The notes under the pieces were generated by a model that was not told the DNA's origin, ran no database searches, and saw only the letters and a list, made by a program, of their open reading frames with translations. The position numbers and the translations under genes were made by a program. Source: an uncultured Bacilli bacterium (GTDB lineage Bacteria > Bacillota_I > Bacilli_A > RF39 > UBA660). Taken from it: a DNA stretch of 5,382 nucleotides. The stretch covers positions 1 to 5,382 of the forward strand of contig CANRCL010000079.1 in NCBI GenBank assembly GCA_947629115.1. Reading direction: 5' to 3'. The first letter of the stretch is position 1; each line of letters starts with the position of its first letter. Of this stretch, positions 4,491 through 5,382 are shown in pieces.

Positions 4491-4979
4491 ATGATTATTA
4501 ATTTAGATGAATTAAATACTAAAGATTACATAGATATTAATTATAAAGTAGAAAAAGATGAATATATTGATAAAAGAATTTATGATTTAAAAGATGGTTT
4601 AGTTAAAGGTAAAGTTTATCAAAATAGTAATAGTGATATTATTTTAGATTGTATATTTACGGGTAGTATGATAATTGAAGACTCTATTACTTTAGATTTA
4701 GTTCCTTATCATTTTCAAATCAATATTGAAGAAAATTTAGATAATTTAGTGGAAAATTATGAAGATTGTTATGAAAATGCACAAAATACACTTGATTTAA
4801 AGACAATTTTATGGCAAAATATTGTATTGGAAGTTCCCATCAGTTATACTTTATGTAAAGATGCAAACATTAAAGGTAATGGTTGGGAGTTAAAAAGTGA
4901 AACTAGTGAGGTTCAAGGTACTAAACAAATAGACCCGAGACTTAAAAAGTTAGAAGATTTATTGAAAGGTGATGATTAG
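4491..4979 (+). CDS. yceD: YceD/DUF177 family 23S rRNA accumulation protein
   Basis: The YceD (DUF177) family is linked to 23S rRNA accumulation and is found next to rpmF across bacteria; in B. subtilis the member is YlbN. The 162-residue protein shows the family pattern: a central L-D-C-I-F-T-G (Cys54) where members usually have a cysteine ahead of a strand, the D-L-K-T-I-L-W-Q-N-I-V-L-E-V-P-I segment at 102-117 followed by Cys122, and the closing I-D-P-R-L-K-K-L-E-D-L-L (147-158), which is the family hallmark. It is acidic and cytosolic with no membrane segment. AAGGAG at 4477-4482 sets the ATG. The stop is 2 nt before rpmF, whose ribosome binding site lies inside this gene, so the two are co-transcribed and probably translationally coupled. 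Confidence 0.9.
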   Translation: MIINLDELNTKDYIDINYKVEKDEYIDKRIYDLKDGLVKGKVYQNSNSDIILDCIFTGSMIIEDSITLDLVPYHFQINIEENLDNLVENYEDCYENAQNTLDLKTILWQNIVLEVPISYTLCKDANIKGNGWELKSETSEVQGTKQIDPRLKKLEDLLKGDD

Positions 4980-4981
4980 TT

Positions 4982-5167
4982 ATGGCAGTTCCTTTTAGAA
5001 GAACGAGTAAAACCAAAAAGAATATGAGAAGAACACATTTAAAAAAGGAAGTTGGAGCAGTTGCAACTTGTCCAAAATGTGGAGCACCTTTAAGACCACA
5101 TAGAGCATGTACTAAATGTGGCAACTATAAAGGTGAAAATGTCTTAAAAGTTGAAGAAGATAAATAA
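4982..5167 (+). CDS. rpmF: 50S ribosomal protein bL32
   Basis: This is a small basic protein of the large ribosomal subunit. The 61 residues begin with the conserved M-A-V-P-F-R-R-T-S-K-T-K-K-N-M-R-R-T-H (1-19) and contain a zinc ribbon formed by Cys30, Cys33, Cys43 and Cys46 (C-P-K-C and C-T-K-C). The four cysteines mark it as the zinc-binding form, not the cysteine-free paralogue some Bacillota induce under zinc limitation. AAAGGTGAT at 4964-4972, inside the end of yceD, is the ribosome binding site. Length is normal. The stop codon sits in the base of the following terminator. Confidence 0.97.
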   Translation: MAVPFRRTSKTKKNMRRTHLKKEVGAVATCPKCGAPLRPHRACTKCGNYKGENVLKVEEDK

Positions 5168-5191
5168 GGTGTAGTAAGATACATCTTTTTT
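5166..5191 (+). terminator. Intrinsic terminator of yceD-rpmF
   Basis: AAGGTGTA (5166-5173) pairs with TACATCTT (5180-5187), with one G-U pair, around a 6-nt loop, and the T-run extends to 5191. The stem starts within the rpmF TAA stop. Confidence 0.75.
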
Positions 5192-5192
5192 G

Positions 5193-5211
5193 TTGTCAAA
5201 TTTTGTCAAAT
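5193..5211 (+). repeat. Short tandem direct repeat TTGTCAAAT
   Basis: TTGTCAAAT occurs at 5193-5201 and again at 5203-5211, a 10-bp period, i.e. about one helical turn. It lies just after the rpmF terminator and upstream of the poly-G promoter-like element. A DNA-binding protein site is possible; chance is not excluded. Confidence 0.35.
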
Positions 5212-5235
5212 AATAAAGAAATTAAAGAAAACCTC

Positions 5236-5263
5236 TTGATTTTCGGGGGGGGGTAATTATAAT
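5236..5263 (+). promoter_or_regulatory. Promoter-like element with a G9 tract in its spacer
   Basis: TTGATT (5236-5241) and a perfect TATAAT (5258-5263) are 16 bp apart, and nine consecutive G (5245-5253) fill most of the spacer. Gain or loss of one G by slipped-strand mispairing would move the spacing to 17 or 15 bp and so raise or lower promoter strength. A Shine-Dalgarno-like AAAGG (5273-5277) follows, but no convincing gene begins inside the window; GTG 5284 gives only 13 codons. The controlled gene, if any, would lie beyond the right edge. Confidence 0.5.
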
Positions 5264-5284
5264 TAATCTTATAAAGGTAGAGAG

Positions 5285-5382
5285 TGTCAAGTAAACATAA
5301 AGTGATAAAAATAATATATCAATAGAAGAAAAAATATATTATACTTAATACGTATATATAATAAATATTGTTTACTTGAACA
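5285..5382. repeat. Terminal inverted repeats bounding 98 bases (possible MITE or insertion-sequence end)
   Basis: TGTCAAGTAAACA (5285-5297) and TGTTTACTTGAACA (5369-5382) are inverted copies with a perfect 10-bp core and one extra base in the right arm. The block begins TG and ends CA, as many transposable elements do. The interior is AT-rich and has no ORF of useful size. A target-site duplication cannot be judged because the window ends at the last base of the right arm. It could instead be one end of a larger element or a long-range operator. Confidence 0.4.

Follow-up and report, generated by a model that had tools for sequence, protein, structure and literature searches.

A poly-G promoter spacer in an uncultured Bacilli bacterium as one copy of a repeated, probably phase-variable surface-protein cassette

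Phase variation through homopolymeric tracts is, to our knowledge, a matter mainly of pathogens and, where the tract lies in a promoter, mainly of single loci. In Neisseria porA, a single locus of a Gram-negative pathogen, a poly-G tract occupies the promoter spacer, and the vlp genes of Mycoplasma hyorhinis carry poly-A promoter switches. As given in the available part of the published account, one Campylobacter jejuni strain has 29 G/C tracts of at least seven bases, which mostly affect surface structures and were scored from G8 to G12, with switching frequencies of 0.004 for a G8 tract and 0.02 for G11 (PMC4965091). The accessible text on the uncultivated Candidatus Mycoplasma girerdii describes a BspA-like surface protein family subject to repeat-length variation; a mod gene in this organism is controlled by one G(8) tract (PMC5476646). 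For nspA of Neisseria meningitidis, the portion of the report available to us describes a one-base homopolymer change upstream of the -10 element that sets expression of the surface protein (PMC6389960).

The window, by which we mean the whole stretch of DNA analysed here, comprises 5382 bases with a GC content of 23.5%. Besides a toxin-antitoxin pair and rpmF, it encodes a DUF1003 gene, a deaminase, a polysaccharide deacetylase and a yceD-like gene whose Pfam match falls under the cut-off. On the + strand 3' of rpmF lies the arrangement TTGATT-TTC-G9-TAAT-TATAAT, and the features referred to below are as follows.

306 to 831: toxin-antitoxin pair of the phd/YefM-YoeB type.
4982 to 5167, + strand: rpmF, ribosomal protein L32 (PF01783, E 5e-21), the upstream neighbour, outside the switch.
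5168 to 5191, + strand: candidate weak rpmF terminator, GGTGTA..TACATC followed by T6, identified by eye.
5236 to 5241, + strand: -35 hexamer TTGATT, which aligns with TTGATT or TTGACT of homologous cassettes.
5245 to 5253, + strand: G9 tract within the spacer; related cassettes have 6 to 10 G.
5258 to 5263, + strand: -10 hexamer TATAAT, giving a spacer of 16 (5242 to 5257) at G9.
5267 to 5273, + strand: TCTTATA shortly 3' of the -10, conserved in this type of cassette, with some aligned rows differing.
5274 to 5382, + strand: 5' leader, homologous to the leaders of surface-protein genes in genomes G001 and G209.

Taken alone, the hexamers are at chance level, with 2 promoter-like sites in positions 4900 to 5382 against 2.2 ± 1.8 in shuffled sequences. 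For G runs of at least nine, a first-order Markov model of the window gives an expectation between 7e-5 (run removed) and 1.2e-4, and the second-longest G run in the window has four bases. The preliminary description had placed a run of nine G between TTGATT and TATAAT with a spacer of 16 and had called such a run very unusual in AT-rich DNA; both points hold, the hexamers and tract having been re-read at the coordinates above and only about 1e-4 such runs being expected per window. A terminator scan of the window reported none, the interval 5168 to 5191 included, and an Rfam scan of the window gave two matches only, both far under the gathering score. When viral contigs were searched with the window's exact flanks and a variable tract, 0 matches were obtained.

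The contig ends ahead of the expected ribosome-binding site and start codon. Within the genus, the best match of positions 5168 to 5382 is on contig C83 of G209 (73% over query 22-202, E 2e-14); all 38 genus genomes match this interval at E 0.01, the weak matches being AT-rich and uninformative. In an alignment, the window and eight homologues from G001 and G209 have a leader of ~140 nt in common, and likewise the -35, G tract and -10, except for G209_C73, which has a different promoter. The start codon, where identified, lies 141-148 nt past the tract in the long-leader homologues (locus L214 has no start before its piece ends), while the leaders of other cassette copies measure 34-56 nt; the start called in L225, at 100 nt, is doubtful. 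Since the window extends 129 nt past its tract, the start codon is expected just past the window end. At two loci whose leaders match that of the window, L141 and L145, the encoded protein has a single membrane segment at its N-terminus together with a DUF285 domain (PF03382); this domain occurs in 9 of the 34 proteins encoded downstream in G001, G209 and G005. Off the contig, the gene of the window itself would, we infer, belong to this DUF285-type class. By eye, the leader contains inverted arms at about 5285-5297 and 5368-5381, and related leaders fold similarly; a conserved leader RNA structure is nevertheless not proposed, RNAalifold giving 37 pairs, of which 4 are changed on both sides, with a covariation term of only -0.24.

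Relatives were collected through an L32 protein search, which yielded 505 confirmed loci, and the best 80 of the 505 were used. These 80 are mostly titled uncultured Bacilli, many from animal guts by title, the remaining titles being Mycoplasma, Tenericutes, Erysipelotrichaceae, plain bacterium and one Ruminococcus; we take the relatives to belong to the order RF39. The most similar gene block is that of L005 in G001 (deaminase 96%, yceD 77%, deacetylase 71%); L32 itself is closer in L001 and L002 (93%) than in L005 (85%). No orthologous tract was found at the same place, within 600 bases 3' of rpmF, in 13 syntenic loci, for three of which the sequence available there amounts to only 150 (L005), 104 (L009) and 497 bases (L019). 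Eight G runs of at least 7, with lengths of 8-10, occur in the best 80 of the 505 loci, six of them between a -35 and a -10 and two near the start of a reading frame (L017 and L028:6488), together with one C7 that by eye falls within a tRNA-like gene. At L017:579, a G9 lies in the leader of a prepilin-like gene, and the start codon and the prepilin frame are out of register as assembled. At L045:6247, in a distant relative, a G8-tract promoter stands 69 bases past the matched rpmF stretch and before another anchored protein; it is probably independent of the window's promoter.

The same arrangement was then counted genome by genome. A strict pattern, TTGAC-N3..13-G7-N0..10-TATAAT, is present in 38 of 193 family genomes, with a maximum of 38 matches in one genome (G094), and absent from 155, and the control, in which the pattern was read backwards, gave 0 everywhere. 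A cassette pattern anchored on TCTTATA matched 13 of 20 genomes, up to 39 times (G222), again with a reversed control of 0. Wider draws were positive in 25 of 296 genomes of the class and 21 of 392 of the phylum (controls 0); the two draws overlap, and some of the family members counted above are among them. Runs of at least 8 G occur in 136 of the 193 family genomes, with up to 79 per genome on both strands (G173). The place of the G tract within the spacer differs between genomes, with unrelated flanks. In 392,515 bases of genome G005, sampled as pieces of at most 20 kb from 20 contigs (C1-C14 and six chosen for having hits), G/C runs of 6, 7, 8 and 9 number 2, 6, 16 and 2, against expectations of 9.1, 1.5, 0.25 and 0.04; for runs of at least 8 this amounts to 18 against 0.3. 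Nineteen of the 24 runs of at least 7 in these pieces lie within a promoter, as called by script. On the reverse strand of L172 (G005:C12), two G8 tracts 77 bases apart precede the same gene, which encodes an N-terminal membrane segment. Under a looser promoter rule, loci L081-L110, the first hits from 15 genomes, contain 24 tracts of at least 8, 18 in promoter spacers and 6 labelled 5' coding; in three of these six (L081, L084 and L089) a frame of 300 aa or longer is open after the tract. In the wider group, G tracts are also found inside coding sequences, close to the beginning of surface or prepilin genes, in the manner of known contingency loci. By these sequence matches, the window promoter with its leader represents one member of a cassette family repeated among related uncultured Bacilli, not a single switch.

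Most of the genes behind the tracts share a common feature. In G005, 20 of the 24 tracts were given a gene (19 distinct) and 4 were not; all 19 distinct genes encode one N-terminal membrane segment, compared with 42 of 276 others (p 8e-15). For 130 promoters from eight genomes, 111 of 112 reading frames begin with a membrane segment at a looser threshold, the other 18 promoters being without a reading frame in the piece. A further set was drawn from other family genomes (31 sites in 30 of the 38 that were positive, each represented by one locus); a reading frame follows 27 of these sites, and 23 of the 27 frames have an N-terminal membrane segment (threshold 1.6). The preliminary description had named surface or defence genes as frequent downstream partners of such switches, and in relatives the former proved correct by all three counts, the products being mostly anchored or secreted proteins. 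Pfam matches among the 27 comprise the prepilin N-methylation motif (4), camelysin-like (3), fn3 (2), Gp10_C (2), DUF285 (1) and a BspA-type LRR (1), with single matches to GtrA-like, Band-7, ABC ATPase and metal-sensing repressor families; outside the genus, therefore, most but not all of the genes are of surface type. Defence genes may also be among them: PADLOC gave one weak match, to a type I specificity subunit (E 4e-4), among 34 downstream proteins of nearer relatives, and matches to nine models, one member each (best E 2e-28), among the 27 proteins of other family genomes, its output giving these matches for the set as a whole and not by protein.

A flank-anchored pattern without a G requirement, in which fixed flanks enclose 4 to 17 free bases, was used to assess tract purity and length. 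It returned 82 sites (31 in G225, 34 in G222, 13 in G006 and 4 in G211, genomes picked for sharing these flanks) and 0 in the reversed control. One site is interrupted, and the other 81 consist of G alone, 6 to 10 in number; in these 81 copies, as in the window, an uninterrupted homopolymer separates the -35 from the -10, as is characteristic of the porA type. The 31 copies in G225 have 6 (1), 7 (6), 8 (17), 9 (5) or 10 G (2), and 29 of the 34 copies in G222 have G8. In the eight-genome set, which omits 10 G runs of at least 6 without a promoter match (two of them, in L170, have a -35 just beyond the reach of the script), the 130 promoters divide into G6 (2), G7 (15), G8 (95), G9 (15) and G10 (3), and their spacers measure 13 (1), 14 (9), 15 (32), 16 (76), 17 (8), 18 (1), 19 (2) and 20 bp (1). 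At the 31 sites in 30 other family genomes the spacers range from 15 to 25 bp and are most commonly 19, so many of the assembled copies would be poor sigma-70 promoters, or else their -35 has been mis-assigned; assembly consensus may also misreport homopolymer lengths.

The clearest length difference between orthologues is that between the sister genomes G001 (L218, G9) and G209 (L228, G8). Over ~1.1 kb, from the start of the alignment to past the membrane anchor, the one-G difference is the single indel, and around the promoter there are 17 substitutions in 759 aligned positions, a divergence of about 2%. Among seven pairs at least 90% identical over at least 250 nt downstream, not all of them independent, the number of G differs in four, one of which (L141/L226) also has dissimilar promoter flanks. 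Among nine between-genome pairs at least 85% identical upstream, six have equal numbers of G and three different; of these three, L218/L228 gives a clean alignment across the promoter, and the alignment there is poor for the other two. Variable tract length, as proposed in the preliminary description, is thus seen among some paralogues and orthologues, that is, in relatives rather than at the window's own locus. Within the genus, the bases flanking the tract and past the -10 are conserved, which counts against switching. MutS (MutS_I), which would correct single-base slips, was found in 184 of the 193 family genomes, in 183 above the family cut-off; the idea that a loss of mismatch repair promotes slippage is unsupported, and fast slippage through missing repair is not expected. 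By the C. jejuni frequency for G8, the mostly-G8 tracts here would be slow switches.

Taken together, these observations are, with good though not full confidence, best explained by a repeated poly-G spacer cassette with a surface-protein gene that is phase-variable by slippage. Each cassette would comprise a promoter of sigma-70 type whose spacer contains a pure G tract, then a leader, then the beginning of a gene for a membrane-anchored surface protein. In replication, slipped-strand mispairing would add or remove single Gs and thereby change the distance between -35 and -10 (13 to 20 bp in relatives, mostly 14 to 17), and the changed spacing would raise or lower transcription of that one gene. 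The lineage most likely holds a set of porA-type phase-variable promoters, and these poly-G promoters probably switch cell-surface genes at random, either on and off or in strength. Both slippage in living populations and its effect on transcription are what we infer from sequence. With tens of cassettes in some genomes, each slipping alone, sister cells would be expected to show different mixtures of surface proteins.

A more far-reaching reading, which we put forward as tentative, is that poly-G spacers are the main surface-variation device of the lineage, a genome of roughly 1.2 Mb having up to tens of slippery promoters that act independently, and that the block of promoter, leader and anchor additionally serves as homology for exchange of the outer domain; both the choice of protein and its form would then change. 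The sister loci L218 (G001:C39) and L228 (G209:C35) are near identical through promoter and anchor; beyond the anchor their outer domains abruptly become different, as though that domain had been exchanged, and this would fit such exchange.

Two explanations do away with switching. In one of them, the tract is the operator of a CsoR/FrmR/RcnR-type repressor, or of some other G-tract binder, and marks a co-regulated regulon in which its length is incidental. Known CsoR operators are pseudopalindromes that contain G tracts, according to the part of PMC3902906 available; the lengths here cluster at G8; one of the 27 downstream proteins matches PF02583 (E 4e-28), and a PF02583 protein is encoded in 6 of 10 cassette-bearing genomes. 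L130 (G051:C6:32272-32300), one of the matches to the strict pattern, with TATACC-AA-G7-TATA and an arm match of 5 of 6 before a repressor-like frame, is probably a true CsoR-type operator, unlike the cassette. The arm match in 31 flank pairs from 30 family genomes is also slightly high (3.71, against a shuffled mean of 3.47, 3.13-3.77), but palindromy in the 77 distinct flank pairs of the genus does not exceed that of shuffled partners (3.27 vs 3.36 of 6), the window's own arms matching at 4 of 6. Moreover, as the tract varies from 6 to 10 Gs its two flanks are displaced against one another, the position of the tract in the spacer varies among genomes, and no PF02583 match was found in G001, G209, G214 and G210, four of the ten genomes and all of them cassette-bearing, although these assemblies may be incomplete. 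The absent palindromy and the missing PF02583 in 4 of 10 genomes lead us to reject a CsoR-type operator for the genus cassette, and we regard operator function in general as unlikely. Some tracts in G418, G371, G442, G426 and other genomes of the class have TATAC- or TATAT-like sequence, G8 or more and TATAAT, with a palindromic look; these may be operators or switches.

The other explanation, to which we give still less weight and which we consider very improbable, holds that the tract is a fixed promoter architecture copied with gene duplication, its length differences being slow drift. A fixed functional motif would give the clustering at G8 (95/130) and at a 16-bp spacer (76/130), as well as the predominance of G8 in G222 (29/34); six of nine close between-genome pairs are of equal length, MutS is present, and the cassettes are paralogues with conserved leaders. 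Descent from one promoter, however, does not predict spacer positions that differ with unrelated flanks; 81 of 82 copies are uninterrupted despite their varying length, and the tract holds the single indel of an orthologous stretch that is otherwise about 2% diverged. Nor do we attach more than the slightest probability to a chance run or to a sequencing or assembly artefact: the window is indeed the end of a short contig, but only ~1e-4 G9 runs are expected in it, homologues with the same flanks exist in other genomes and the reversed-pattern controls are 0. Barring a systematic fault of assembly, the recurrence of this arrangement in many further genome assemblies makes an artefact of reads or assembly unlikely.

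If the phase-variable cassette reading is correct, an uncultured, apparently gut-dwelling lineage has slippery promoters for whole families of surface proteins, and the surface diversity between its cells could be read from existing metagenome reads by counting Gs; this could bear on commensal immune evasion, phage resistance and adhesion. Literature searches returned no match joining RF39 and phase variation, and those on DUF285 and phase variation concerned, by title, Mycoplasma or general repeats and domains. Poly-G promoter families in gut Bacilli are not reported, by title or start of abstract, among the matches listed, a scope outside which subscription literature falls.

The closest described systems share parts of this arrangement. 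As in porA, a pure G tract between -35 and -10 sets the spacing and a surface protein lies downstream (here in relatives); unlike porA, a single genome of these uncultured Bacilli can have as many as tens of paralogous promoters. The vlp system of M. hyorhinis is similar in that several related surface-protein genes each have a homopolymer in their promoter, and in its host, a low-GC Gram-positive relative, but differs in its poly-A tracts, few genes and different proteins. For nspA, the available part of the report concerns poly-A (5A/6A) at a single gene and is experimentally tested (PMC6389960). In Ca. M. girerdii, the accessible text deals mainly with dinucleotide repeats acting on the reading frame and with population read counts behind them (PMC5476646). 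Finally, in the available part of the C. jejuni account, 23 of the 29 tracts fall within the main body of reading frames (PMC4965091), whereas 19 of the 24 tracts in the G005 pieces are found in promoter spacers.
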